A stretch of 54,359 bases of DNA. Source: Nitrospirota bacterium (GTDB lineage: Bacteria > Nitrospirota > Thermodesulfovibrionia > Thermodesulfovibrionales > Dissulfurispiraceae). The notes beneath the pieces are model-generated. The model made no database searches and was not told where the DNA came from. It saw nothing but the letters and a program-made list of their open reading frames with translations. Shown piece after piece: positions 6,204 through 47,883 of the stretch. The translations under genes were made by a program, and so were the position numbers. The stretch covers positions 1-54,359 of the forward strand of contig JAJYVD010000014.1 in assembly GCA_021792185.1 (NCBI GenBank). The letters are read 5' to 3'. How positions within the stretch are numbered: the stretch's first letter is position 1; the number at the start of each line of letters is the position of its first letter.

Positions 6204-6511
6204 AATTATTCTCCTCTTATTGATTTCGTTAATGTTTTATCTATTTCACGGCGCTTGCGATTGCTTTGTTTTTTCGCGTCTACTTTTCGTCCCCAGTAAG
6301 CGCCGCAGCCTTTCTTTGCCACTGAATGCTCTGTCTTCTTCGCCTGATAAGCCATCCCGTTTTTATTTTACTATTAATGAGCTTAAAATTACACCGGCTA
6401 TGGAGGATTGATTGGTGTTTGGGATAAAGGAATTAAATAGAACCGTCCCGTTTATCTCGTTTATCTTTCGACTAATAACCCGCACTAATAACCCGCTAAT
6501 AACGCCTCGAA
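6204..6511. other. Intergenic region with a 13-bp tandem repeat
   Basis: No convincing gene is present. ACTAATAACCCGC occurs twice in tandem (6471-6483, 6484-6496) with a third partial copy to 6506. Just beyond, CACGGG and CCCGTG form an imperfect hairpin across the 3' end of the next minus-strand gene and could be its terminator. Confidence 0.5.
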
Positions 6512-6910
6512 TCACGGGGAGGGCAAAGCCCGATCCCGTGGATGAGATTGTTGTGTGCGATCCATTATGAATTTCTCAGCATGACCAATGGTTATCGGCT
6601 TCAGCAAGCCCACAGAAATAATTATTTCGTATTTTCCTTCACCTATTTTAGAACCAGTGATGTCAATCGAGTAGTTTTGTCCATTGCGTTGTATTGATTC
6701 GCGAAAGCCTTTATTTATTATTTCTATTGCCTTTTTCTCTCCGTCGTTCTCGAAAGACGTCCAATACTCTTTGATGACTGCCAATATGTCTTCACGATAA
6801 GGTGACTTCTTAAATTTTTTTTCGGATATCAATACGGCTACTCCCGCAGGTATAACCATTGCGAGGTAGAGTGCCACAATCACAGCAATGCCAATTAATA
6901 TCCATTTCAT
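6512..6910 (-). CDS. Small membrane-anchored protein of unknown function
   Basis: Not recognised. The 132 residues begin with one strongly hydrophobic helix (about residues 3-28, signal-anchor like), followed by a charged helical segment (YREDILAVIKEYW) and a beta-rich domain. The last ten residues (HPRDRALPSP) are encoded inside a hairpin and look unlike the rest, so the original C-terminus may have been replaced by a repeat. Its upstream region (6928-7013) is nearly identical to the one before the TPR-CHAT locus at 24.8 kb, suggesting shared control. It is divergent from hypF. Confidence 0.55.
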   Translation of the reverse strand: MKWILIGIAVIVALYLAMVIPAGVAVLISEKKFKKSPYREDILAVIKEYWTSFENDGEKKAIEIINKGFRESIQRNGQNYSIDITGSKIGEGKYEIIISVGLLKPITIGHAEKFIMDRTQQSHPRDRALPSP

Positions 6911-6927
6911 TTTATTTCTTCACACAA

Positions 6928-7013
6928 CAATTACTATACGAACTGTCGTATTTTCCGAAAACTGATTAAAATATAGCATACATTAAAGATTTTTAAAAGA
7001 GGAAAAATCTCAT
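6928..7013 (-). promoter_or_regulatory. Duplicated upstream element, copy A, with palindrome
   Basis: Read on the minus strand, about 86 bases are nearly the same as 24784-24869 on the plus strand. Both contain GCTATATTTTAAT, then CGGGAAATAC or CGGAAAATAC and the palindrome ATACGA-N4-TCGTAT (here 6936-6951). Each copy ends 17-25 bases before the start codon of an unrelated gene. Probably a promoter plus operator for one regulator. The homology stops before both coding regions. Confidence 0.65.
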
Positions 7014-7032
7014 GAAATCAATCATCATTCAT

Positions 7033-7061
7033 TTGCCGCGTGAGATGCTTTGTGTTAATAT
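7033..7061 (+). promoter_or_regulatory. Putative leaderless promoter of hypF
   Basis: TTGCCG (7033-7038) and TAATAT (7056-7061) with a 17-bp spacer. The -10 box ends 9 bases before the hypF ATG and no Shine-Dalgarno is visible, so the transcript probably begins at or next to the start codon. Confidence 0.5.
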
Positions 7062-7070
7062 GCATTAATC

Positions 7071-9452
7071 ATGAAGCGCCTCTATATTCAGATCAAAGGC
7101 ATTGTTCAGGGCGTTGGTTTCAGGCCATTTATCTACAATCTTGCAAAAAGTTTAGACATTAACGGCTATGTAACCAATACATCCGGCGGCGTGATTATCG
7201 AGGCCGAGGGCGAGCGCCTTGACGAGTTCCTCGAATCCATCCAAACCCAATGCCCTCCTCTCGCGAAAATAGACAACATCGAAACTCAAGGGATGCCTCC
7301 AAAAGGCTATGAAGGCTTTTCTATAATCGAGAGCGTTGATAAAGGAAGTTTTACCCTTATCTCGCCGGACATAGCCATATGCGATGACTGTCTGAGAGAA
7401 ATGCTCGATCCTTCGGACAGGCGCTATCTCTATCCGTTCATTAACTGCACCAACTGCGGGCCAAGATATTCGATCACTAAAAAAGTCCCTTATGACAGGC
7501 CGAATACGACAATGTCTGTTTTCAATATGTGCCCGCAATGCCTTTCGGAATATAACGACCCTTCAAACCGCAGGTTTCACGCGCAGCCTAACGCGTGTTT
7601 CAAATGCGGGCCGCACCTTGAATTTCAAATTTCAAATCTCAAATTTCAAATCGGAGAAGCCGCAGAGCCGGTAGAAGCAGCGATAAACCTGTTAAAACAG
7701 GGCGCGATATTAGCCGTTAAAGGCATTGGAGGTTTTCATCTTTGCTGCGACGCTGAAAATGAATATGCTGTAAAGAGATTAAGAGAACATAAGAGGCGGA
7801 GCAATAAACCGTTTGCTTTAATGTCGCCCGATATTGAAACAATAAAAAGATTCAGCGATGTCTCGCCGGATGATGAAGCTCTGCTCAATGACATGCGGCG
7901 GCCGATTGCGCTTCTCAAAAAGAAAGGCGATAGGCTTCCCGATGAGATTGCCCCGAACAATAAATATTTTGGTTTTATGCTGCCGTATGCGCCGCTGCAT
8001 TATCTCTTGTTTCATTATCCTATTGCCCATAGCCTATCGCCTATTGCCTCTCATTTCTCAGTTCTTGTTATGACGAGCGGCAATCTCTCAGAGGAGCCGA
8101 TAGTCATAGATAATGAAGAGGCGATATCGAAACTTTCATTTGCTGACGCCTTTTTGGTGCATGACAGGGATATTTTTATGAGGGTAGATGATTCTGTAAT
8201 TAAGGCAAGAGGCTTCATCCGCCGCGCCCGCGGCTATGTGCCGGAGCCGATCAGGTTGACCGATGACGGTCCTGACGTGCTGGGCTGCGGAGCGGATATT
8301 AAAAATACATTTACTGTCACCAGAGGCGATTATGCGGTAGTAAGCCAGCACATAGGAGATATGGAAAACATCGAAACCCTCCGGTTTTTTGAAGAAAGCC
8401 TTAATAATCTGAAGCAGGTTTACAGGGCAAATCCAGTTGCCGTTGCTTACGATCTTCATCCCAATTATCTGTCCACGCAATGGGCATTAAAGCAGGAGTC
8501 AGACAAAGAATCTCAAATTTCAAATTTCAAATCTCAAATTCTGTACCTTGGCATTCAGCATCATTACGCACACATCGCATCCGTTATGGCCGAGCATGGA
8601 ATTAAAGAAAAGGTTATCGGAGTTGCGTTTGACGGCACAGGATACGGCACGGACGGGAATATATGGGGCAGCGAGTTCCTTGTGTGCGATCTGAACGGTT
8701 TTGAGAGGGCAGCGCATTTTAAATATATCCCACTGCCCGGCGGCTCTGGAGCCGTAAAGGAATGCTGGAGAACGGCAATCGCTTATATTGCCGACTGCGG
8801 ACTGCGGAAGCCCGATTTATGGAACTGCCTCGACGATATAGGATTCGTAGAAAGATACGGTAGGGACAAGATTGAAAACATCCTGAAGATTCTCGACAAC
8901 AGGCAGTTCTCTCCCCTTTCATCGGGAGCCGGCAGGCTGTTTGACGCGGTGTCGGCTATTGCGGGGATATGCGATAAGAACACCTTTGAAGGCGAGGCTG
9001 CGATAGCGTTGGAAAGCGCAATAGAAGCGTCGAGCGTGGAGCGTCAAGCGTTAGAGAATAACATATACCCTTTTGAGATTTTATATGACTCTATTCCTAA
9101 CTCTCGACTCTCAACTCTTAACTCTATTATGGTTGTGGATTTTTCAAAAATGGTCCTGCGGATAATAGAAGATGTGAAACGAGATGAAGACAAAGGCATG
9201 ATCGCCGTCCGCTTCCATAATACTACAGTAAATGCGATAACGGAACTTGTAAGCAGAATAAGCGCAATATGCGGGATTAAAACCGTCGCACTCAGCGGGG
9301 GCGTTTTTCAGAATAATTATCTTCTCGAAGGGGTTTTAGGCAGGTTATCGTACCTCGGATTTGATGTCTATACCAACGAAAAAGTCCCTTGCAATGACGC
9401 CGGAATATCGCTCGGACAGGCGTATATAGCAAGGGAAAGGCTGAAGAAATAA
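7071..9452 (+). CDS. hypF: Carbamoyltransferase HypF
   Basis: A 793-residue [NiFe] hydrogenase maturation protein. Domains in order: acylphosphatase (GIVQGVGFRPFIYNL, near residue 10), two zinc-finger pairs (CDDC...CTNC, CPQC...CFKC), a YrdC-like domain that makes carbamoyl-adenylate, and a Kae1-like domain with HHYAHIASVM and FDGTGYGTDG. It passes the carbamoyl group to HypE for the Fe cyanide ligands. Two in-frame copies of an AATTTCAAAT-type repeat (7619-7653, 8509-8541) and other short repeats add loops absent from typical HypF, yet the frame stays open. It sits upstream of the hydrogenase structural genes; hypABDE are not in the window. Confidence 0.95.
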   Translation: MKRLYIQIKGIVQGVGFRPFIYNLAKSLDINGYVTNTSGGVIIEAEGERLDEFLESIQTQCPPLAKIDNIETQGMPPKGYEGFSIIESVDKGSFTLISPDIAICDDCLREMLDPSDRRYLYPFINCTNCGPRYSITKKVPYDRPNTTMSVFNMCPQCLSEYNDPSNRRFHAQPNACFKCGPHLEFQISNLKFQIGEAAEPVEAAINLLKQGAILAVKGIGGFHLCCDAENEYAVKRLREHKRRSNKPFALMSPDIETIKRFSDVSPDDEALLNDMRRPIALLKKKGDRLPDEIAPNNKYFGFMLPYAPLHYLLFHYPIAHSLSPIASHFSVLVMTSGNLSEEPIVIDNEEAISKLSFADAFLVHDRDIFMRVDDSVIKARGFIRRARGYVPEPIRLTDDGPDVLGCGADIKNTFTVTRGDYAVVSQHIGDMENIETLRFFEESLNNLKQVYRANPVAVAYDLHPNYLSTQWALKQESDKESQISNFKSQILYLGIQHHYAHIASVMAEHGIKEKVIGVAFDGTGYGTDGNIWGSEFLVCDLNGFERAAHFKYIPLPGGSGAVKECWRTAIAYIADCGLRKPDLWNCLDDIGFVERYGRDKIENILKILDNRQFSPLSSGAGRLFDAVSAIAGICDKNTFEGEAAIALESAIEASSVERQALENNIYPFEILYDSIPNSRLSTLNSIMVVDFSKMVLRIIEDVKRDEDKGMIAVRFHNTTVNAITELVSRISAICGIKTVALSGGVFQNNYLLEGVLGRLSYLGFDVYTNEKVPCNDAGISLGQAYIARERLKK
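7619..7653 (+). repeat. In-frame AATTTCAAAT micro-repeat, hypF copy 1
   Basis: An alternation of AATTTCAAAT and AATCTCAAAT encoding EFQISNLKFQIG between the second zinc finger and the YrdC-like domain. Related copies lie at 8509-8541, 40787-40822 (aroC) and 30198-30215. Confidence 0.75.
8025..8056 (+). repeat. Short C/T-rich micro-repeat in hypF
   Basis: A stretch built from variants of CCTATTGCCCATAG, CCTATCG and CCTATTGCC, encoding PIAHSLSPIASH. Similar text occurs on the plus strand at 40446-40481 in aroC and, more loosely, at 16258-16294 before trpE. Confidence 0.5.
8509..8541 (+). repeat. In-frame AATTTCAAAT micro-repeat, hypF copy 2
   Basis: The same repeat family as 7619-7653, in the same orientation and reading phase, encoding SQISNFKSQI just before the conserved HHYAH segment. 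Confidence 0.75.
9027..9128 (+). repeat. Micro-repeat cluster near the hypF 3' end
   Basis: Two short repeat types in one loop: GCGTCGAGCGTGGAGCG text (9027-9055) and ACTCTCGACTCTCAACTC text (9100-9128). The second is related, in reverse complement, to 16530-16560 in trpE. Both are translated through. Confidence 0.5.
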
Positions 9453-22466: not shown

Positions 22467-23523
22467 AAATATCGGTTCTCCGCTGATCCTCGGCATCGAC
22501 ACCTCGTGCGACGATACTTCAGCCGCTGTCGTCGCCGACGGGAAAAGAATCCTCTCCAACATAGTTTCTTCGCAGTCCGACATCCACAAAAAATACGGCG
22601 GCATAGTGCCTGAACTTGCATCCAGAAGGCATATCGAAATGATATGGCCTGTGGTGGAAGAGGCATTGAGTTCAGCCGGTGTTACCCTCGACGATATTGC
22701 CGCTATTGCCGTATGCCACGGCCCAGGTCTGATAGGCTCTCTGCTTGTGGGCTGCGGATTCGCAAAGGCTGCGGCTTACGCTAAAAATAAACCCGTTGTC
22801 GCGGTGAACCATCTCGAAGGCCATATATTTTCGGTATTTTTAGAAGGCAGCCCTGAATTTCCCTTTTTATCGCTCATAGCATCAGGAGGTCATACAAGCC
22901 TTTCTATTGTCAACGGCTTCGGCCAATATACGGAACTCGGCAGGACAAGGGACGACGCTGCCGGAGAGGCATACGATAAAGTCGCAAAACTCCTCGGTCT
23001 CGGCTATCCCGGAGGCCCCGTTATAGACAATCTGGCTCAGGAAGGAAATCCAAAGGCATTCGATTTTCCGAGGGCGTATGTGCCTGAGTCATTCGATTTC
23101 AGTTTCAGCGGGTTAAAGACTGCGGTAAAGTCGGCAGTCAGCCGTAAGCCTTCAGCAGCAAGCGATGCCGGATTCATTAAAGACATTGCGGCGTCATTTC
23201 AGGCCGCTGTTGTGGATGTGCTTGTGAGAAAGGTTGAGTGGGCTATAGTGAAAAAAGGAATAAAAAGGGTAACTCTTTCAGGCGGTGTTTCTGCGAACAG
23301 TGAATTGAGAAGAAGATTTCAGGAAATGGCAGAGGAAAGAGAGATTGAGTTGTTCCTGCCTTCGATTTCATTCTGCACGGACAATGCGGCCATGATAGCA
23401 GCCGCAGGGTATCATCACTTCAAGGCAGGAGATATTGCGGGCATAGATTTAAATCCCAAGGCGTATCTGCCGTTGTATGGATGCTCCTTAACTAAAGACT
23501 CCGCCTCCTTTGGAACCGATTAA
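22453..23523 (+). CDS. tsaD: tRNA threonylcarbamoyladenosine transferase TsaD
   Basis: A 356-residue ASKHA-fold protein: GIDTSCDDTSAAVV, the metal site HLEGH, ASGGHTSL, DDAAGEAYDKVAKLL, and TDNAAMIA. With TsaB and TsaE it attaches the threonylcarbamoyl group to A37 of ANN-decoding tRNAs. The ATG lies inside the ccsA end. Its stop overlaps the stop of higA on the other strand. Confidence 0.96.
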   Translation: MEEAKNIGSPLILGIDTSCDDTSAAVVADGKRILSNIVSSQSDIHKKYGGIVPELASRRHIEMIWPVVEEALSSAGVTLDDIAAIAVCHGPGLIGSLLVGCGFAKAAAYAKNKPVVAVNHLEGHIFSVFLEGSPEFPFLSLIASGGHTSLSIVNGFGQYTELGRTRDDAAGEAYDKVAKLLGLGYPGGPVIDNLAQEGNPKAFDFPRAYVPESFDFSFSGLKTAVKSAVSRKPSAASDAGFIKDIAASFQAAVVDVLVRKVEWAIVKKGIKRVTLSGGVSANSELRRRFQEMAEEREIELFLPSISFCTDNAAMIAAAGYHHFKAGDIAGIDLNPKAYLPLYGCSLTKDSASFGTD

Positions 23524-23840
23524 CGGCCTGCCAGTGCCGTCTGCATTTTATTATAGGGCTTGATTTTGCGAAGCGTTTCTGACATCTCGTCACGGGCAAC
23601 TGCAAGGTCATAATCTATCTGCAGCCGCTCCCAAAAACCGTCAGACAGATCGAAAAATTTAGACAACCGCAGGCCTGTATCAGTAGTGATAGCGCGTTTG
23701 CCCGCTATAATTTCACCGATACGGCGCTGTGGTACTCCGATTTCCTTTGCAAGCCTGTATTGTGTGATTCCCATAGGTTTTAAAAACTCCTCAAGGAGTA
23801 TTTCTCCGGGAGTGGGATATGGAACTTGTCTTTTATTCAT
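23520..23840 (-). CDS. higA: HigA-type antitoxin
   Basis: A 106-residue Xre-type helix-turn-helix protein of the HigA/VapI family: PGEILLEEFLKPMGITQYRLAKEIGVPQRRIGEIIAGKR. It binds the toxin and represses the operon. It is downstream of the toxin gene by 16 bases, the typical higBA order. GGAGAT precedes the ATG. Confidence 0.9.
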   Translation of the reverse strand: MNKRQVPYPTPGEILLEEFLKPMGITQYRLAKEIGVPQRRIGEIIAGKRAITTDTGLRLSKFFDLSDGFWERLQIDYDLAVARDEMSETLRKIKPYNKMQTALAGR

Positions 23841-23856
23841 GATAACAATCTCCTTT

Positions 23857-24135
23857 TTAGTGATAATCCACTATTTCAACATCAAGGGCATTGCCGCCCT
23901 CAAACCTGAAGCATATCCGCCATTGATCATTAATGCGGATGCTCCATTGCCCTTTGCGTTTGCCGCTTAAAGCCTCAAGCCTATTGCCTGGGGGAACTCT
24001 CAGATCCTCAATCCTGCCTGCAACATTAATCATTGCGAGTTTTCTCATAGCTACCGTCTCAATGCGGGCAAGCCGTGTGCTGCGTTTTCCGTTAAACAGC
24101 GCTTCGGTATCCCGGCATTTAAACGATACGATCAT
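23857..24135 (-). CDS. higB: HigB/RelE-type toxin
   Basis: A 92-residue RelE-fold mRNA interferase: FNGKRSTRLARIETVAMRKLAMI then PGNRLEALSGKRKGQWSIRINDQWRICFRF, the classic HigB core. It cleaves translated mRNA at the ribosome. Co-transcribed with higA. Confidence 0.9.
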   Translation of the reverse strand: MIVSFKCRDTEALFNGKRSTRLARIETVAMRKLAMINVAGRIEDLRVPPGNRLEALSGKRKGQWSIRINDQWRICFRFEGGNALDVEIVDYH

Positions 24136-24186
24136 GGTTTAATAATAACGAATCGCAATAGTAATGTCAAATGTTAGTATTTCTCG

Positions 24187-24232
24187 CATGGGGTGCGCTC
24201 GAACCCGAGACCTTCAGCTATGGCAACCCCTT
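24187..24232 (-). other. Possible tRNA 3'-half remnant
   Basis: Read on the minus strand the stretch gives CTGAAGGTCTCGGGTTCGAG followed by CGCACCCC, very like the variable region and T-arm of a tRNA but without a complementary T-stem or 5' half. It may be a scar of integration at a tRNA gene, fitting its place at the edge of the accessory island. Confidence 0.3.
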
Positions 24233-24275
24233 TATGATATAATGAAATTAAATCTTATAGAGGCAGGTGAAACAT

Positions 24276-24512
24276 ATGGGCGCTACTTTAACAATAAGCG
24301 AGAATTTGTCTAAGAGGCTGGAGCGATTAGCTAAAACTACCAAGCAGTCGAAATCTTCTTTGGCGTCGCAAGCAATCGAGGATTTTTTAACAGTTCAGGA
24401 ATGGCACATTCACGCGATAAAGGAAGGCATCGAAGCGGCAGACAGGGGAGACGTTGTTAGCCATAAAGAAGCCGTTGCCGAATTGAAAAAGTGGGGTCGG
24501 CGTGCATCTTAA
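24276..24512 (+). CDS. Ribbon-helix-helix antitoxin (ParD/CopG type)
   Basis: A 78-residue protein: a short strand (ATLTISENLSKRLERLAK) and helices SKSSLASQAIEDFL of the RHH fold, then a charged tail that wraps the toxin. I take ATG 24276 over GTG 24267 because the AGGCAGGTG site fits it. It overlaps the toxin gene by 11 bases. Confidence 0.82.
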   Translation: MGATLTISENLSKRLERLAKTTKQSKSSLASQAIEDFLTVQEWHIHAIKEGIEAADRGDVVSHKEAVAELKKWGRRAS

Positions 24513-24783
24513 ATGGACGTGTCCTGCGATTAAAGACCTCAAAGACGCAGGAGATTTTATCGCTTTAGACAATCCTGCCGCTGCGGAGAGAATGGCTGAA
24601 AGGGTAAGAGAGGCAGTAGAGTATCTGTCGGAATATCCCAATATGGGCAAGCCCGGACGTGTCCAAGGAACAAGAGAGCTTATCATATCAAGCACACCGT
24701 TTATTATTGTTTATCGCATTTTATCCCCGGCAATTGAAATTTTAAGAGTGCTCCATCATGCAAGGAAATGGCCAGCCGTATAA
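24502..24783 (+). CDS. ParE/RelE-family toxin
   Basis: A 93-residue RelE/ParE-superfamily protein: KWTCPAIKDLKDAGDFIALDNP, PNMGKPGRVQGTRELIISSTPFIIVYRI and LRVLHHARKWP, the ParE-type C-terminus. It starts at GTG 24502 within the antitoxin gene. Gyrase or ribosome target cannot be decided from sequence. Confidence 0.85.
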   Translation: MHLKWTCPAIKDLKDAGDFIALDNPAAAERMAERVREAVEYLSEYPNMGKPGRVQGTRELIISSTPFIIVYRILSPAIEILRVLHHARKWPAV

Positions 24784-24869
24784 ATGACGATTTTTCTGTT
24801 TTTAAAATCTTTCAGATGTGCTATATTTTAATTAATTTTCGGGAAATACGACAGTTCGTATGGTAATTG
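24784..24869 (+). promoter_or_regulatory. Duplicated upstream element, copy B, with palindrome
   Basis: Near-identical to 6928-7013 read on the opposite strand. The palindrome ATACGA-CAGT-TCGTAT lies at 24846-24861. It precedes the small ORF at 24894 and, before the IS arrived, the TPR-CHAT gene. A likely -10 is TATATT near 24823. Confidence 0.65.
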
Positions 24870-24893
24870 GGTTCTATAAGGAGGCATAAAAAT

Positions 24894-25028
24894 ATGTCCT
24901 TAAATGAAAGGTTAAATAAATTTCTCATCGAGGATAAAGGGATTGAAAATATATTTAAAAAAAGAAGAGAGAAAAAGAGAAAAAGAGAAAAAGAAAGAGA
25001 AAAAGGGGACAGCGACGAATGGCGCTGA
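24894..25028 (+). pseudogene. Small basic ORF interrupted by the IS
   Basis: The ORF has a strong AAGGAGG site and opens MSLNERLNKFLIEDKGIENI, then turns into a Lys/Arg/Glu-only helix. The IS4-type element at 25016 changes its last residues. Joining the sequence across the target duplication gives an ending GDSDYL and a stop at about 26488, a protein of about 43 residues ending about 20 bases before the TPR-CHAT gene. It probably was the first gene of that operon. Function unknown. Confidence 0.5.
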
Positions 25029-26482
25029 CTTAAGGAAAATTCAAGAAAAGACCTCCAAGTATCGATTTATTTAGTGAGAGCTAAAAACAACCGACACAGG
25101 AGGTCTGATGAAACATACTACTGGTATCGGCGGAAGTGTCAGCAAACTTGAGGAAATGAGACGGAGATTAGAATCGACACAACTCAGTGCAGTACGTGAA
25201 CTGCTCGCAGACAGCGCAATCACGCGAATATGCAATGAATGCGAATACTATTTCAGAGAGCGTATTTTTACGCCATTAGTAACGATCTTTCATATGATAG
25301 GAGCGGCAATAAGCCGAGAGGGGAGTTTTCAGAGTTCTTGGCATAACATAGGAGAGACCGGGAACTCCGACACATTATCTAAAGCGCGAAAGAGGTTACC
25401 GGTAGCCGTATGGAAGAAAATCCACAAGTGGATAACAACGCAAATAGAGGATGACAACAGGGAAGTAAGGTTATGGCGAGGACATCGAGTGATAGGGGTT
25501 GACGGCACTTGTGTTTCAATGAGCGATGAACCTGAACTGCAACGGGTGTTTGGCAAGAGCGGATCAAGGCTTGGCAAAAGTCGTTTTCCCATTGCGCGGG
25601 CAGTATTTGGATTTGACCTTTTTAATATTACGGTGGTGGATTATAAAAACGGGTCATATAAAACAGGGGACAACAGATTGTTTTCAGAACTCATGCATCA
25701 ATTTAACAATAGCGATGTAATAGTCGGAGATCGTCGATTTGCCGGGGCAAAGCTATATGTGGATTACATACGTGCAGGTCTGCAATATATTACCAGAGCC
25801 CACCATCGGCTGAAAATAAACAGATTAAGAATACGGCGATATTTGGGCAAGAACGATTATATTGTGTTCATGCCTATCCCGAAGATATATAGTCATAAGG
25901 ACGCGACACTACCGGACAATATAGAGGTCAGGATACTCAAGGTGACAGCGATAGTAAGAGGGAGAAAAGAATCATTCTGGATAGTCACCTCACTGCTTTG
26001 CGCTGAGAACTATCCTGCGGATGAGATAAGGGCGCTTTACCAAAGGAGATGGCTGGTAGAGGGGCTGATGGTGAAATAAAGATATGGCTTGGCGCTGATG
26101 TTCTACGGTCAAAGACTGAAGAAGGGATTCAGAAGGAAATTTATGCCCGGATAATTGCCTTTAACTTGATTCGCTGGCTGATGCTAAGAGCAGCCGAACA
26201 ATACGGGAAGGATGCCGGAAGGATAAGTTTTGCAGCTACAGTTCGTTTGGTAGCCGCCTGTAGCCTTAAGATGAGCACGGCGCCTTTCTATATGCTGCCG
26301 TCGCTATATGCAGACTTACTTGAAAGAATAGCATGTTCCATTGTTCCCTATCGTCCGGGCAGGGTAGAACCCAGATTGAAAAAGCGGGATCAAAAACATT
26401 ATTCGATACTAAAAATATCACGTGCAGAATGGAGGGCGCTCAATGGCATCGCTGCTTAAGTCAGCGCCATTCGGGACAGCGA
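25007..26482. mobile_element. IS4-family insertion sequence with target duplication
   Basis: Terminal inverted repeats CGAATGGCGCTGACTTAAG at 25016-25034 and 26455-26473 (19 of 19, inverted). The direct repeat GGACAGCGA flanks the element on both sides (25007-25015 and 26474-26482), a 9-bp target duplication, so it inserted whole and recently. The element itself is 1458 bp and holds one transposase gene, which is frameshifted. Confidence 0.92.
25108..26459 (+). pseudogene. IS4-family transposase, frameshifted
   Basis: Two overlapping frames make one DDE transposase: residues from 25108 to the stop at 26079 (GVDGTCVSMSD with the first Asp, SDVIVGDRRF with the second, then LYQRRWLVEGL) and a second frame continuing KIWLGADVLRSKTEEGIQKE to 26459. 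The expected E-containing YxxRWxxE...LRSK join falls at the break near 26070, so a one-base loss (or a programmed shift) separates them. No classical slippery heptamer is visible. Confidence 0.88.
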
Positions 26483-26506
26483 CTATTTATAGAGGGATAG
26501 AATTAT

Positions 26507-29041
26507 ATGGAAAAGGGGAAAACTATAGGAATTTTGGCGATAGTAGCTCTATCTTTATTTCTAATATTCTCTTTCTCAGCATTTGGGCAAGAGCAGTCTC
26601 TTGATGAAGCCAAAAGGCTCAATCGGAAAGTTGTAGAACTATACAAGCAAGGAAAATATAATGAGGCAATTAATTATGCACAGCAAGTGCTGGCGATAAG
26701 GGAAAAAGCCCTCGGCAGCGAGCATCCCGATGTGGCAACGAGCCTGAGCAATCTGGCAGGACAGTATGAATCTACCGGCAGGTATGCAGAAGCCGAACCA
26801 TTATATAAAAGGGAGCTTGAGATAAGAGAGAAGGTATTTGGCAGGGAGCATCCTGAAACTGCGATCGTTCTTCGCATGCTGGCAGAGCTTTACAGAGTAA
26901 CCGGCAGGTACGCAGAGGCCGAACCACTGTATAAAAGATCGCTTGAGATAGTTGAGAAAGCATTTGGCAAAGACCATTTTTCTGTAGCGGCAAGTCTTAG
27001 CAAACTGGCCATGCTGTATTATTCAACAGGCAGATATGCAGAAGCCGAGCCATTGTATACGAGGGCACTTGCAATACAGGAGAAAACACTTGGCAGGGAA
27101 CATCCCGCTGTAGCACATATCCTAAGCCCTCTGGCAGAGCTTTACAGGGCCACCGGCAGGTATGGAGAGGCTGAACCATTGTATAAGAGGGCACTCGCGA
27201 TATGGGAGAAAGCACTCGGCAGCGAGCATCCTGCTGTAGCACTACGTCTTAACCATCTGGCGTTTCTTTATGCCGCAACAGAGAGACATCCGGAAAGCCA
27301 AAATCTTTTTAAAAGAAGTATTTCTATGGATGACTTAAAGAGAGAGAATGTATTTTTGGTCCTTAATGAAAAACAGAAAATCAGCTATATGAATCAGAAC
27401 GAAGGCTCTATCCATGCCTTTATGTCCCATTCAGTCAAACACATGCAATCATCCCCGCAGGCAATAACCGACACCTTTAACGCATGGCTCAAGTGGAAGG
27501 GCGCCGTTGCAGAGGCACAGGGAAGATACATGGATGCGGCAATGCAGTCCGGCGACCCTGAGGTAAAAAGGAAGCTTGATGAACTTACTGCTATCCGCAG
27601 GGAGATAGCAAAGATGCAGTTATCAAAGCCAGACAGGGATGGATTTGAGGCTTACAGAAATAGAATTGATGCGCTTCAAAAGCAAAAAGAGACACTTGAA
27701 GCAGAGTTGAGCAGACTGAGCAAAGATTTTGCCCTTGAAAAGACGATCGGCAGGGCTGATGTAAACAACATATCAGAAATATTGCCGAAAGATTCAGTCT
27801 ATATAGACTTTGCAAAGATTGAGTTTTATGACTTTAAGAAAAACAAATTGGACAAACCGAAATACCTTGCATTTGTCCTGATACCGCAGAAAGAGCCGCA
27901 AGTCAAACTAATTGAAATATCAGATGCCGGCGATATAGAAAAACATGTCAAGGCATACCTTCAGGAGATGAACAAAATAAAGACATCAGGCAATGTCCCT
28001 GATAAAACCGCCTTGGACACGGCCGCCCGTGCCATATATGATCTTGCAATTAAGCCATTGGAAAAATACATAAAAGGCAGGAAGCAGTTATTTATAAGTC
28101 CTGACGGTAATCTTAACCTGATACCATTTGAGGCGCTGGTAACACCTTCAAATAAATACCTCATGGAAGAATATACAATCAGCTACATATCAGCAGGAAG
28201 GGACATAATCAGGTTTACCGATACAAATATAGCAAAAGGTGACGCCCTTATCATCGCAGACCCTGACTACGACATGGGATTAATGGAAAGGGATAAAATG
28301 ACAAAGGAAATGAAAGTGGCGAAGACGATAAGAGGAGGATTATCTAAAGATGTCTTGAATATAAGTTTTGACAGGCTTCCTGATACAAAACAGGAGGCAG
28401 ACGCCATAGAGAAGGTCTTAAAGAACAAAAAGAAGCTTAAGGTAAAGAACTATCAGAACATAAAAGCGATTGAAGAAATGATATTCTCCGCAGAGACACC
28501 TAAAATACTCCATCTTGCAACTCACGGATATTTTCTTAATGACGAAGAGCTCAAAGTAAGCAGTGAAACGAGAGGCGTTAAAATAAAATTGAAAGACGAC
28601 TTTATGGCAAAAGATGAGGCGGTAAATATTGAAAACCCGATGCTCCGTTCCGGGATAGTGTTTTCAGGAGTGAATGCCTCACTCAAGGCCGGAAGGGATG
28701 ACGGCATGATGAGCGCAGAAAAAATACTCGGAGTGAACCTGAAAGGCACAGACCTTGTAGTGCTTTCGGCATGTGAGACAGGTGTCGGAGATGTGCAAAA
28801 TGGAGAAGGCGTGTTTGGTTTAAAGAGAGCTTTCATACTTTCAGGTGCAAAGACACTGGTGATGAGTTTATGGAGCGTTCCAAGCGCAGAAACTACAGAA
28901 CTTATGACAGATTTTTATACATTGATGTCCACAGGGAAGCCAAAGGCAGAAGCATTAAGGCAGGCGAAACTGAACATGATGAAGAAAAAGAGCAACCCTT
29001 TTTATTGGGGCGCATTTGTGATGACAGGAAAGCCAGAGTAG
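26507..29041 (+). CDS. Exported TPR-CHAT protease-like protein
   Basis: An 844-residue protein. Signal peptide (about residues 1-27, ending FGQEQ), then at least five kinesin-light-chain-type TPRs of about 42 residues (AEPLYKRALAI...LGxEHPxVA), a helical linker, and a C-terminal CHAT caspase-like domain. The catalytic dyad is His673 in LATHG and Cys756 in LSACETG; the fold ends NPFYWGAFVMTG. CHAT domains cleave proteins or scaffold them. The export signal makes this a periplasmic or surface protein rather than a cytoplasmic defence caspase, as I infer. The IS ends 33 bases before its ATG and has separated it from its probable promoter at 24.8 kb. Confidence 0.88.
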   Translation: MEKGKTIGILAIVALSLFLIFSFSAFGQEQSLDEAKRLNRKVVELYKQGKYNEAINYAQQVLAIREKALGSEHPDVATSLSNLAGQYESTGRYAEAEPLYKRELEIREKVFGREHPETAIVLRMLAELYRVTGRYAEAEPLYKRSLEIVEKAFGKDHFSVAASLSKLAMLYYSTGRYAEAEPLYTRALAIQEKTLGREHPAVAHILSPLAELYRATGRYGEAEPLYKRALAIWEKALGSEHPAVALRLNHLAFLYAATERHPESQNLFKRSISMDDLKRENVFLVLNEKQKISYMNQNEGSIHAFMSHSVKHMQSSPQAITDTFNAWLKWKGAVAEAQGRYMDAAMQSGDPEVKRKLDELTAIRREIAKMQLSKPDRDGFEAYRNRIDALQKQKETLEAELSRLSKDFALEKTIGRADVNNISEILPKDSVYIDFAKIEFYDFKKNKLDKPKYLAFVLIPQKEPQVKLIEISDAGDIEKHVKAYLQEMNKIKTSGNVPDKTALDTAARAIYDLAIKPLEKYIKGRKQLFISPDGNLNLIPFEALVTPSNKYLMEEYTISYISAGRDIIRFTDTNIAKGDALIIADPDYDMGLMERDKMTKEMKVAKTIRGGLSKDVLNISFDRLPDTKQEADAIEKVLKNKKKLKVKNYQNIKAIEEMIFSAETPKILHLATHGYFLNDEELKVSSETRGVKIKLKDDFMAKDEAVNIENPMLRSGIVFSGVNASLKAGRDDGMMSAEKILGVNLKGTDLVVLSACETGVGDVQNGEGVFGLKRAFILSGAKTLVMSLWSVPSAETTELMTDFYTLMSTGKPKAEALRQAKLNMMKKKSNPFYWGAFVMTGKPE

Positions 29042-29243
29042 CGTAGGAAATGAGGGACAACACCTCCTTCTTTTTTTCCTCTCCGAAAGGATTATAAACA
29101 TTTTCACCCTTTTTAATATGAAGTCCATTCCGTCTATTTCAGGCTATTATCTTTGACTTTAGCAAAGAAATTGATGCGCATATAACGCGGGAACTGGATA
29201 GGGGAGTAATGGTAAAATTAATGCATAAAAATATGGGTATGCT

Positions 29244-29528
29244 ATGAGAGAAGATAAGGAATTAGAGCCTGTTGAAATCCCGATAGACGGGGTACTGGAT
29301 CTGCATACCTTTAATCCTAAAGAGATAAAGGAGCTTTTGCCCGATTATCTTTCGGAATGCGGTAAAAAGGGAATCCTCGACGTGCGGATCATTCACGGCA
29401 AGGGAACGGGCGCTTTGCGTGAAACCGTGCATGCGATACTTCGCAAAATCCCGGAGGTTGAATCCTTCAGCCTTGCAGGAGAGGGCGGCGGAGGATGGGG
29501 CGCTACTGTTGTGAAACTTAAGAGTTAA
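29244..29528 (+). CDS. Smr-domain protein
   Basis: A 94-residue stand-alone Smr domain: LDLHTFNPKEIKELLPDYL then the HGKGTGALRETV loop and AGEGGGGWGATVVKL. Smr domains nick or bind branched DNA or RNA; here there is no MutS part. A clear Shine-Dalgarno is not visible. The next gene starts 19 bases on. Confidence 0.88.
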   Translation: MREDKELEPVEIPIDGVLDLHTFNPKEIKELLPDYLSECGKKGILDVRIIHGKGTGALRETVHAILRKIPEVESFSLAGEGGGGWGATVVKLKS

Positions 29529-29547
29529 AAATTATACGGAGGTTTTT

Positions 29548-30030
29548 ATGATCGTAGGCATTATTTCCGATACGCACGACCAGCTTGATAATTTAAGAAA
29601 GGCATTGAAAATATTCGAAGAGAAAAATGTCGCTCATATAATACACGCCGGGGATTTTTGTTCTCCGTTCACATGGAGGGTTATAAGGAATTTCAAGGGC
29701 GATTTTACGGGCATTTTCGGAAATAACGACGGCGAAAGGTTGTTGTTAAAGAAACTCTATCAGGACAGGATTTATACCCAGCCTTACAAATTAACTCTCC
29801 ATAACAGAAGAATAGTCGTTATGCACGAGTCCGATGTGGTTGATGATCTCGCTGCGAGCGGACATTTCGATCTCGTTGTTTTCGGTCATACGCATGAGCC
29901 TGTCATTAAAAAGGTCAAAGAAACTTTGATCGTAAATCCCGGCGAAGTGTGCGGATGGCTTTACGGAAAACCTACGGCGGCTGTCGTTAATCTTGAGACT
30001 ATGGATGCAAAAATAATTTCTATAACATAA
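29548..30030 (+). CDS. YfcE-type metallophosphoesterase
   Basis: A 160-residue calcineurin-like phosphoesterase: GIISDTHDQLDNL, HAGDFCSP, GNNDGE, and FGHTHEP, all metal-binding blocks present. Family members hydrolyse phosphodiesters with Mn. ACGGAGGT precedes the ATG. The biological substrate is unknown. Confidence 0.9.
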   Translation: MIVGIISDTHDQLDNLRKALKIFEEKNVAHIIHAGDFCSPFTWRVIRNFKGDFTGIFGNNDGERLLLKKLYQDRIYTQPYKLTLHNRRIVVMHESDVVDDLAASGHFDLVVFGHTHEPVIKKVKETLIVNPGEVCGWLYGKPTAAVVNLETMDAKIISIT

Positions 30031-30197
30031 TATGTCGGCGAGGTATAACCGGCTTTCGCAAAATAATTAGTCGTTAGTGCTTGATTATAACAAGAAAAGA
30101 ATATAGAAGTTTTCTCTGTGCGAGGTTGGGGGCAGTCGTTACTTTGCCCCTTGGAGAACCCAGAAATTTTGCTTCAAGCCAGCCATACCCCGCCTTG

Positions 30198-30215
30198 TTC
30201 AAATTTCAAATTCTT
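30198..30215 (-). repeat. AATTTGAAATTTGA micro-repeat forming a gene end
   Basis: The same repeat family as in hypF and aroC, here in the reverse orientation relative to the gene. It supplies the last residues (EFEI) and the TGA stop of the beta-CASP nuclease. Confidence 0.5.
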
Positions 30216-31581
30216 CCCCTTTATGAGGCACATGCGTTATAAAGCCGAATTTGTCTTTTACTGTTTCTTCGAATTCAAGAGCGACTTCTTCTTCGCCGTG
30301 GACAATGAATACCTCCGGTTTATTTGAGAATGCGCCAAGCCATTCGAGAAGCCCGTCCCTGTCCGCATGCGCCGAGAATCCCCCGATTGTATAGACCTTC
30401 GCCTTTACCGCGATCTCTTCTCCGAGGACATTTACTGTTTTAGCGCCTTCTATTATCTTTCTTCCGAGAGTTCCCTCTGCCTGAAATCCCGTGAATATCA
30501 GGCCGCATTCCGGACGCCACAGATTGTGCTTGAAGTGATGCCTTATCCTTCCTCCGTCGCACATGCCGCTTCCGGCGACAATAACGGCTCCGGATTTTAT
30601 TCTGTTTATTTTCTGAGAGTCTTCTATCGAGGTTGTGAAGTGAAGTTTTATTGCATTACCTTTTCTGTTCCTGAGCATCTTCATTGCATCTTCATCATAG
30701 CATTCGGGATGCGCTAAATAGACCTTTGTCGCTTCTTCCGCGAGGGGGCTGTCCACATAAACATTGAGACTGTTAAGCCTTCCTTCCCCGGACAATTTGT
30801 TCAAGGTGTATAAAATATCCTGCGTCCTTCCGACGGCAAAGGCAGGAATTAACACATTACCGCCTCTTTTGAACGTAACTTTTATTGCCTCCGCGAACTC
30901 GTCGATGCTCTCATTCATGCCTTTATGCAGCCTATTGCCGTATGTCGATTCCATTACAACATAATCCGCAGTCCCTGTGTGCTGAGGGTCGTTGATTATC
31001 GGATTTCCTTTTTTGCCTATGTCCCCGGAGAATACTATTTTTTTTTCGACAGGGCTGTCCTGATACCATAATTCCAATGTCCCGGAACCGAGTATATGAC
31101 CGGCATCTATAAACCTGTATTTCACGCCCTTGCCGAGATTTTCGATTTTTCCGTAAGATTTTTTCTCGAAGAACGGGATTGCCGCTTTTGCGTCTGCGGT
31201 TGTATATAACGGCTCAAACACAAGATCCTTTCCGGACCTGAATGCCTTTTTGGTCAGCCATTCAGCGTCTTTTTCCTGGATCTGAGCGGAGTCGTAAAGC
31301 ATGATCTCGGCGAGGTCTGCGGTGGCGTATGTGGCGAATATCCTGCCTCTAAACCCGTCTTTTACGAGTTTTGGAATAAGTCCGGAATGGTCTATATGGG
31401 CGTGGGTTAAAAAGAGGAAATCAATATCGTGCGGATTGAATTGAAACTGCGCTCTGTTCATCTCATCGGCATAGTCTCCCTGATACATCCCGCAGTCAAC
31501 GAGTATCTGCAAGTCGTTTATCGACAGGTGAAAACATGTGCCGGTGACCGTCCTGACGCCGCCAATAAATTTAATTTTCAT
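30199..31581 (-). CDS. Beta-CASP metallo-beta-lactamase RNA nuclease
   Basis: A 460-residue MBL-fold protein with the metal motif LTHAHIDHSGLIPKL, SGDIG, and beta-CASP motifs (VMESTYGNRLH, AFAVGRTQDILY, VAGSGMCDGGRIRHHF, GGFSAHADRDGLLEWL). It belongs to the CPSF73-like bacterial group that cuts or trims RNA. The C-terminus is shaped by a micro-repeat. It overlaps the upstream radical SAM gene by 4 bases. Confidence 0.92.
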   Translation of the reverse strand: MKIKFIGGVRTVTGTCFHLSINDLQILVDCGMYQGDYADEMNRAQFQFNPHDIDFLFLTHAHIDHSGLIPKLVKDGFRGRIFATYATADLAEIMLYDSAQIQEKDAEWLTKKAFRSGKDLVFEPLYTTADAKAAIPFFEKKSYGKIENLGKGVKYRFIDAGHILGSGTLELWYQDSPVEKKIVFSGDIGKKGNPIINDPQHTGTADYVVMESTYGNRLHKGMNESIDEFAEAIKVTFKRGGNVLIPAFAVGRTQDILYTLNKLSGEGRLNSLNVYVDSPLAEEATKVYLAHPECYDEDAMKMLRNRKGNAIKLHFTTSIEDSQKINRIKSGAVIVAGSGMCDGGRIRHHFKHNLWRPECGLIFTGFQAEGTLGRKIIEGAKTVNVLGEEIAVKAKVYTIGGFSAHADRDGLLEWLGAFSNKPEVFIVHGEEEVALEFEETVKDKFGFITHVPHKGEEFEI

Positions 31582-40128: not shown

Positions 40129-41325
40129 TTAAAAGTTTTTTAAATGCTCAAGATACCCGGCAGCATTCCTCTTTGTTTCTTCCATGCTATCGCCGCCGAA
40201 TTTTTCGATTAGGGCATCGGCGATGACAAGGGCTGTCATTGCTTCGCCTATTACCGCGGCGGCAGGGACAGCGCAGGTATCCGAGCGCTCATAAGCGGCC
40301 TCAAAAGGCTCTTTTGTAATAATATCAACTGACCGTAGCGGTTTCCTTAATGTAGGGATAGGTTTCATAGCCGCCCTTATAATAACAGGCATTCCGTTTG
40401 TCATACCGCCTTCAATACCGCCAGCGTGATTCGTCTCTCTATAAAAACCTATTGTCTCTTGCCTCTTGCCCATTGCCTTTTCATAGAATATCTCATCCAT
40501 GACTTCCGAGCCGAATCTTTCCGACATCCCGAAGCCCGTCCCTATCTCGACGCCCTTTATTGCCTGAATCCCCATCATTGCCTGAGCGAGTTGTCCGTCG
40601 AGCCGTTTATCCCACTGTATATGGCTGCCGAGGCCGATGGGCAGTCCTGTTGCGACAACCTCGAAAATCCCTCCCAAAGTGTCTCCGTTTTTTGAAGCGG
40701 TGTCTATCAGCGCCATCATTTTTTTCGATGCCTCTTCATCAGGGCATCTAACCGAAGAATTTTCTGTCATAATGAAAATTTCTTCGGAATTTGAGATTTC
40801 AAATTTGAAATTTGAGATTTTCACGCTTCCAATCTGTATCACATAACTTCCGATATTGATCCCGAACTCGGAAAGGAATTTTTTTGCCACCGCTCCTATC
40901 GCGACGCGCATAGCAGTTTCCCGCGCGCTTGAGCGTTCGAGGATATTCCTTATGTCTTTGTGCCCGTATTTTAATGCGCCGGCGAGGTCTGCATGACCGG
41001 GCCTCGGTCTTGTTACGGCGTCGATAGAGCCTTCATGCCGGCTGTCGGATGACATGCCCTGTTCCCAGTTTTTCCAGTCTTTGTTCTCGATAAGAAGCGA
41101 TATCGGAGAGCCGATGGTTTTTCCCCATCTCACTCCCGAAATTATCTCAGCATGGTCGCTTTCTATCTTCATCCTGCCGCCTCGGCCGTATCCTGCCTGC
41201 CTTTTTTTGAGTTCTTTGTCTATATCTTCGGATGATAAAAGAAGACCTGCCGGAATTCCTTCGAGTATTCCGGTCAATCCCTTGCCGTGAGATTCGCCTG
41301 CCGTAAGAAATCTGAGTTTATTCAT
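40129..41325 (-). CDS. aroC: Chorismate synthase
   Basis: A 398-residue FMN-dependent enzyme: RFLTAGESHGKGLTGILEG, RRQAGYGRGGRM-type block (KKRQAGYGRGGRMKIE), RPRPGHADL, SSARETAMRVAIGA and EGGMTNGMPVIIRAAMKP. Last step of the shikimate pathway. It carries an extra loop (KISNFKFEISNSEE) encoded by the AATTTCAAAT micro-repeat. It has a leaderless promoter and no Shine-Dalgarno. It heads aroC-ald-slt. Confidence 0.95.
   Translation of the reverse strand: MNKLRFLTAGESHGKGLTGILEGIPAGLLLSSEDIDKELKKRQAGYGRGGRMKIESDHAEIISGVRWGKTIGSPISLLIENKDWKNWEQGMSSDSRHEGSIDAVTRPRPGHADLAGALKYGHKDIRNILERSSARETAMRVAIGAVAKKFLSEFGINIGSYVIQIGSVKISNFKFEISNSEEIFIMTENSSVRCPDEEASKKMMALIDTASKNGDTLGGIFEVVATGLPIGLGSHIQWDKRLDGQLAQAMMGIQAIKGVEIGTGFGMSERFGSEVMDEIFYEKAMGKRQETIGFYRETNHAGGIEGGMTNGMPVIIRAAMKPIPTLRKPLRSVDIITKEPFEAAYERSDTCAVPAAAVIGEAMTALVIADALIEKFGGDSMEETKRNAAGYLEHLKNF
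40446..40481 (-). repeat. Short C/T-rich micro-repeat in aroC
   Basis: Plus-strand text CTATTGTCTCTTGCC, CTCTTGCCC and ATTGCC, related to 8025-8056 in hypF, encoding EKAMGKRQETIGF on the minus strand. Confidence 0.45.
40787..40822 (-). repeat. In-frame AATTTCAAAT micro-repeat in aroC
   Basis: On the coding strand the copy reads ATCTCAAATTTCAAATTTG and ATCTCAAATTC, encoding ISNFKFEISN in the same phase as the hypF copies. Confidence 0.75.
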
Positions 41326-47551: not shown

Positions 47552-47585
47552 GCCGCAAAGACTTTTAGCTTTGCGGCTTTTTTGT
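47552..47585 (+). terminator. Terminator or attenuator before cspA
   Basis: GCCGCAAAG pairs with CTTTGCGGC (9-bp stem, 8-nt loop) and seven T follow. It can end glgB. It lies about 50 bases before the cspA start, so if the cspA promoter is upstream it would act as a leader attenuator. Confidence 0.75.
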
Positions 47586-47636
47586 TTGGCAGGTCTTTCT
47601 GAAACTTTAGTACAAGAGCAAGGAGGTATGTCCGAG

Positions 47637-47837
47637 ATGGCTAAGGGTACGGTAAAGTGGTTCAACGAATCCAAGGGATTCGGCTTTATCACAAGCGAAG
47701 ACGGCAGCGACGTATTTGTTCATTATTCTTCCATTCAGGGCGACGGATTCAAGTCGCTTGCTGAAGGCGATGCGGTCAGCTTTGATGTCGAGAAAGGTCC
47801 TAAAGGGCCGAAGGCAATCAATGTAGTTAAACTTTAA
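47637..47837 (+). CDS. cspA: Cold-shock protein
   Basis: A 66-residue OB-fold RNA chaperone: [17 protein letters not shown] (RNP1), DVFVHYSSI (RNP2). It melts RNA secondary structure. ATG 47637 follows AGGAGG by 10 bases. A strong terminator follows directly. Confidence 0.95.
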
Positions 47838-47849
47838 TTGTCTGCAAAA

Positions 47850-47883
47850 AAGCCCTCCTGCAACTCAGGAGGGCTTTTTTTTA
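47850..47883 (+). terminator. Intrinsic terminator after cspA
   Basis: AGCCCTCCTG pairs with CAGGAGGGCT (10 bp, loop CAACT), with an A-run before and eight or more T after; it works in both directions. Confidence 0.92.

Follow-up and report, generated by a model that had tools for sequence, protein, structure and literature searches.

The first TTRRRY of an integron cassette must match the complement of the R'' box of its own attC site, and integrons as a whole are pictured with a single integrase, a single attI and a single array, of which only the first cassettes are well expressed. This one-platform model is stated in the accessible text of PMC11023631, where attG sites are cited as well; according to the accessible parts of that paper and of PMC12444791, attG sites (Loot et al. 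2024) belong to neither the attI nor the attC type. CALIN and In0 elements are defined in the available portion of PMC9024848, and the sections of PMC12444791 at hand describe CALINs at conserved loci in Xanthomonas that can be mobilised in trans. The part of PMC12901181 that was available covers delta-attI sites of unusual cassettes, reported to be functional with IntI1.

The window, i.e. the whole stretch of 54,359 nt from a Nitrospirota genome that was analysed here, contains an 86-nt repeat pair at 6928-7013 (minus strand) and 24784-24869 (plus strand). A repeat search gave 84% identity for it, and no inverted pair in the window is longer. An earlier note on this DNA had described the pair as near-identical blocks that include a 16-bp palindrome, and this holds: ATACGACAGTTCGTAT is present in identical form in both blocks, which also terminate at the same base (G6928 in copy B, G24869 in copy A). 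The features of the two blocks are as follows.

6928..7068, minus strand: copy B of the probable attI/Pc block, without integrase (R1 match 6925-7068, 93.7 bits, E 1.4e-26; alignment with intI-linked copies)
6936..6951, no strand: palindrome ATACGA-N4-TCGTAT of copy B (pattern scan)
6970..6997, minus strand: predicted Pc of copy B, consisting of TTTAAA, 16 nt, TATATT and a TG extension (consensus scan and conserved columns)
24787..24869, plus strand: copy A, right half of the probable attI/Pc block (R1 match, model positions 60-142, 60.4 bits)
24822..24827, plus strand: TATATT of TGTGCTATATT, predicted -10 of Pc in copy A (alignment)
24846..24861, no strand: palindrome of copy A (pattern scan)

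Judged from sequence comparison, the block is very probably the attI site together with the cassette promoter (Pc) of a Nitrospirota integron family, which has become dispersed and has mostly lost its adjoining integrase. In copy B the homology is longer (6925-7068), and the 86-nt repeat makes up its right part. The block itself ends on the right at the G of G^TT (6928^6927), and its left end nearly reaches the hypF start codon (7071, plus strand), with a few nt between them. Five strong copies were found in this genome with BLAST, and R1, a sequence-only model trained on the block family, detected 8 copies at E<=2.4e-9 in addition to weaker ones. The exact pattern ATACGA-N4-TCGTAT occurs at 3 sites in the 2.65-Mb genome, all within block copies, and the reversed control pattern at none.

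The family extends to relatives. A consensus query returned block copies in 12 of 60 of them, and R1 matched 59 of 176 Thermodesulfovibrionales genomes, with up to 12 copies each, as well as 36 of 346 genomes sampled across the phylum. The named genomes that carry the block core belong to the Thermodesulfovibrionales and to other Nitrospirae/Nitrospiraceae MAGs. Most of the genomes compared appear to be draft MAGs, and since attI-like repeats break assemblies, some missing intI genes may represent assembly loss. In the alignment conservation spans about 145 nt and ends abruptly at ATAGTAATTG^TT, beyond which nothing aligns; in 21 of 24 copies with the core the block ends at AATTG^TT, and the sequence continues mostly with RNRY.

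As the earlier note had proposed, the block is a conserved non-coding element with a promoter-like core, TGCTATATT, that stands upstream of unrelated genes, in relatives as well as here. Many copies in non-promoter positions, named there as the finding that would speak for a simple repeat, were not observed. The core is conserved across the family, and its TG.TA columns are invariant or nearly so among 22 block copies. The predicted Pc of copy B reaches a consensus score of 9/12, which is no higher than that of shuffles, and the consensus promoter scan makes no call at the predicted -10 of copy A. The palindrome is kept in many but not all family members. Its position within attI suggests that it is probably part of the integrase-binding region; an accessory site would be the other candidate role. 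Divergent attI-like blocks lie at the ppiC and uvrB loci of the present genome, G000 (L257 on C59; L258 at C2:120556). The ppiC block carries ATACCA-AG-TTGGTAT instead of ATACGA-CAGT-TCGTAT; at uvrB, G002 lacks any insert, and G000 and G019 have divergent variants. Upstream of the block, three further copies from two genomes (L136, L137 and L169) have some 85 additional nt in common that resemble an attC-type palindrome (AACTCGCG..CGCGTGTT); this segment may bear on dock dispersal.

At ten loci in relatives (G003, G027, two in G111, G041, G102, G106, G012, G146 and G159) the block lies, always in the same geometry, between a divergent intI of about 430 aa and the first cassette, and this placement marks it as attI plus the presumed Pc. 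The intI-type ORF tested, from G027, scored 416 bits against an NCBI integron-integrase cut-off of 265 bits. In a maximum-likelihood tree all block-linked integrases fall into one clade of 14 with support 93/94, and none of 500 label shuffles was as clustered. Three of the four unlabelled members of this clade end at a contig end at or near intI. A member of the clade is encoded on C77 of G001, which belongs to the same genus as the present genome.

In the window no intI lies beside either copy: copy B abuts hypF and copy A abuts ParDE. The only intact IntI of this genome (C84, beside acpS) belongs to another clade and has a different attI region. Both facts count against the proposed reading of dispersed docks loaded in trans, as do the missing attC and the altered junction of copy A. 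Integrase, attI and cassettes occur together only at the intI-linked copies in relatives, and the window copies were rejected as a complete integron. The C84 gene (L056, 7253-8527) is followed by one cassette (179 aa) with an apparently truncated attC; at the same acpS locus G019 carries a block without intI. Upstream of hypF, G001 and G002 show only a truncated trace of the block when inspected by eye.

Behind the blocks we found attC sites by a junction-guided search combined with covariance models (R2, built from 8 seeds, and R3, from 23). Many block copies have a classical attC after the first gene. A strict search for GTTRRRY/RYYYAAC found no attC. All 30 attC matches at block-bearing loci (E<1) lie downstream on the block strand, a zone that makes up 19% of the sequence searched, 8 of the 30 being model seeds chosen from this very zone. 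For 26 of the 51 examined docks a model that rests on few sequences detected no attC. In 11 of 16 cases the 7 nt that open the sequence behind the block are exactly the complement of the attC R''. At the variable positions junction and R'' agree in 55 of 64 comparisons, the permutation mean being 27 and the maximum 48 (100,000 permutations); an earlier permutation test, which took raw 1500-nt windows behind the blocks, had shown little signal (6 of 18 against 1.8 expected, maximum 7). Most of 20 first-cassette ORFs tested from other loci were without Pfam match, and the matches include an OmpA-like protein, an RsgA-like GTPase, a flavin-type oxidase, a methyltransferase and a Crp-like regulator. 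The block was also considered as an attC itself and rejected: a 180-nt copy folded as DNA does not exceed its shuffled versions in stability (z -0.5), and a classical R'' box is absent.

The two window copies have the following genes behind them.

6503..6927, minus strand: gene cassette B, 425 nt, from TTGTGT to the G before TTATTA
6497..6556, minus strand: attC of cassette B, R'' ACACAAC ... R' GTTATTA (R2 55.6 bits, R3 46.6 bits)
24894..25016, plus strand: start of an ORF of about 45 codons behind copy A, interrupted by an insertion sequence (read from the sequence)
25017..26472, plus strand: insertion sequence between copy A and the TPR-CHAT gene (DDE_Tnp_1 in 25108-26079, E 5e-15)
26507..29041, plus strand: TPR-CHAT protein, 844 aa (Pfam CHAT E 4e-74, TPR)

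Copy B is an intact-looking dock with one cassette. At its junction the conserved G is followed by cassette-specific sequence (G^TTGTGT), and GTTGTGT is fully complementary to R'' ACACAAC of the attC, this attC being one of R2's own seeds. The cassette holds a single ORF (6512-6910) for a 132-aa protein with a hydrophobic N-terminus, which has no match in Pfam, NCBIfam or PADLOC. At or directly after the end of its attC, window positions 6502-6470 repeat the motif CGGGTTATTAG, each time with a GTTATTA core-like heptamer; these could be successive core sites. Further downstream, at about 6200-5830 (minus strand), a HicB/HicA-like toxin-antitoxin pair was recognised by eye. Several docks have toxin-antitoxin-like pairs close by (ParDE at copy A, HicAB and RelBE-like on C2, MazF-like on C64). 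The hypF coding region contains AT-rich GAATTTCAAATTTCAAAT repeats at 7620-7651 and 8508-8539, with a related copy at 40787-40818. Rfam gave no attC-type match in the window; it did place a cspA thermoregulator RNA (RF01766) at 47552-47880 with 82.1 bits, just above the gathering score.

Copy A has kept only part of this organisation. In place of its left half stands a ParDE toxin-antitoxin pair, the end of which is at 24783. Its right end is the G equivalent to the crossover G of copy B, after which an altered junction, G GGTTCTAT, follows that lacks the complementarity to an R'' seen in copy B. The claim that both blocks stop just before coding regions stands insofar as each lies immediately upstream of unrelated genes; for the TPR-CHAT gene it fails, because the small ORF from 24894 and the insertion sequence intervene before its start at 26507. 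The insertion sequence has 18-nt inverted ends, GAATGGCGCTGACTTAAG, and is flanked on both sides by the 11-nt repeat GGGACAGCGAC (target duplication). The attC covariance model found no credible site at 23000-31500, the best score being 10.2 bits. Copy A looks like a decayed half-dock or degenerate platform with a putative cassette-platform role; the TPR-CHAT gene is a putative cassette only. Transcription of the small ORF may still start in copy A, as that of TPR-CHAT may once have done. The pair does not amount to a CALIN (at least two clustered attC, no intI), copy B having one attC and copy A none.

How the docks received their cassettes is a separate question. An integrase of the matching clade would recombine attI, at G^TT, with the attC carried by a circular cassette, and the inserted cassette would come to lie behind the promoter-like core and then be transcribed. 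Where the local intI has been deleted, the enzyme would be encoded elsewhere in the genome or would have been present earlier. We lean slightly towards solo docks being loaded in trans, a view that rests on comparing orthologous loci. The wider proposal has about an even chance of being right: a distributed integron, in which one integrase per cell, sometimes only transient, loads many dispersed intI-free docks in trans, and in which the docks would be kept by selection for having many cassettes first and expressed at once instead of one.

The main alternative leaves the attI identity untouched and disputes the trans step only. Solo copies would be dead relics, their cassettes having been inserted while a local intI was present that was then lost independently in each lineage. 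Among 51 block loci examined, nine have an adjoining long intI and about forty none that is recognisable, and a series of decaying genes lies between these states: N-terminal intI codons remain at L140, L148, L252 and L165 (in L165 they run in frame into a lipoprotein-like ORF), C-terminal pieces at L059, L060 and L251, and L249 has an internal deletion. Several many-dock genomes (G043, G019) moreover show no intI at E<=1e-60, as relics would lead one to expect. A C-terminal integron-integrase fragment at G000:C75:58385-58498 (L055, L135), with an attC about 700 nt away, represents another decayed integron in this genome.

Independent loss agrees poorly with the orthologous solo docks at an MFS locus (four genomes, two genera), at ppiC-mnmE (two genomes) and at yrdC (two genomes). 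At all three, conservation between species covers the flank, a left border without integrase and the block, and unrelated sequence follows directly after AATTGTT; in G000 the last approximately 15 nt of the MFS block are altered. Behind GTT, identity over 150 nt is 38-50%, as for unrelated DNA, against 80-91% in the blocks. A shared integrase-less border with differing cassettes would mean that intI was lost before the cassettes turned over, so that insertion after this loss would have occurred in trans. One RsgA-like 353-aa cassette was also found twice, in two genomes and behind docks whose loci are unrelated, with identity starting at GTT. The non-coding block equals its neighbouring gene in conservation at two loci (87.4 versus 84.4% and 90.8 versus 84.5%), which again speaks against relics; within one genus the MFS block is less conserved than the gene (80-83 versus 89-91%). 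Taken together we regard dead relics as rather unlikely.

That the block is a small non-autonomous, MITE-like mobile repeat with a chance promoter is very improbable. There are many dispersed copies, two of which, in G295, are 96% identical over 148 nt with unrelated flanks, and the left edge of solo copies is fairly sharp. This edge, GGACAATTTTGCCAT, consists in many of them of the intI start and about five codons, i.e. codons 1-5 of the integrase gene, truncated intI stands beside several copies, and on the right the block stops at an integron core site, behind which lie cassettes whose attC match. Nothing recognised at the copies amounted to convincing terminal inverted repeats or target duplications. 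Truncated intI at about eight examined loci favours dispersal together with intI and later deletion; the near-identical intI-less copies in G295 (148 nt) and G054 make movement of a short unit possible.

A shared operator or promoter of one regulator, serving a stress or conflict response as the earlier note had suggested, is scarcely credible. The promoter-like core, the palindrome and the position just upstream of genes would suit such a regulon. We reject it because the block exceeds an operator, ends at the G^TT recombination crossover rather than at a promoter landmark, and is followed by cassettes with attC. The conserved adjoining gene across genomes is moreover an integron integrase and not a regulator, the downstream genes at one orthologous locus differ between species, and the palindrome is broken in many copies. 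Off-target insertion at degenerate attG sites without a homologous dock would explain cassettes outside intI-bearing integrons but is barely conceivable, since a homologous block of about 145 nt precedes the cassettes and occurs with intI in relatives, and attG sites are neither attI nor attC in the accessible part of PMC12444791.

If the attI/Pc reading with loading in trans is true, some ten dispersed docks per genome would allow several cassettes to be first at once and genes to be taken up at many loci. Isolated cassettes would then have a source other than attG insertion, and docks can escape detection where at least two attC are required. A description of dispersed or solo integrase-less attI copies upstream of cassettes was not found in the literature searched, most subscription papers lying outside it.

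Compared with known systems, the block resembles the attI/Pc region of chromosomal integrons in its place between a divergent intI and the first cassette (in relatives), its G^TT insertion point, its promoter-like core and the attC-bearing cassettes downstream. Unlike chromosomal integrons, with one attI and one array, these genomes hold several homologous copies at unrelated loci, mostly without intI and each with one or few cassettes. With CALINs, which according to the available texts can be mobilised in trans and in part occupy conserved Xanthomonas loci, the docks share cassettes that lack a neighbouring intI; CALINs are defined there by attC (at least two by default), whereas docks are defined by the retained attI/Pc and often have one attC. 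Like attG sites as described in the accessible sources they place cassettes at dispersed chromosomal positions, but they are homologous attI copies with a promoter-like core. The delta-attI cassettes of mobile integrons, as far as the available part of PMC12901181 describes them, likewise carry attI sequence away from its usual place; there the attI remnant is a downstream recombination site, whereas here attI lies 5' of the cassette, as its putative dock.
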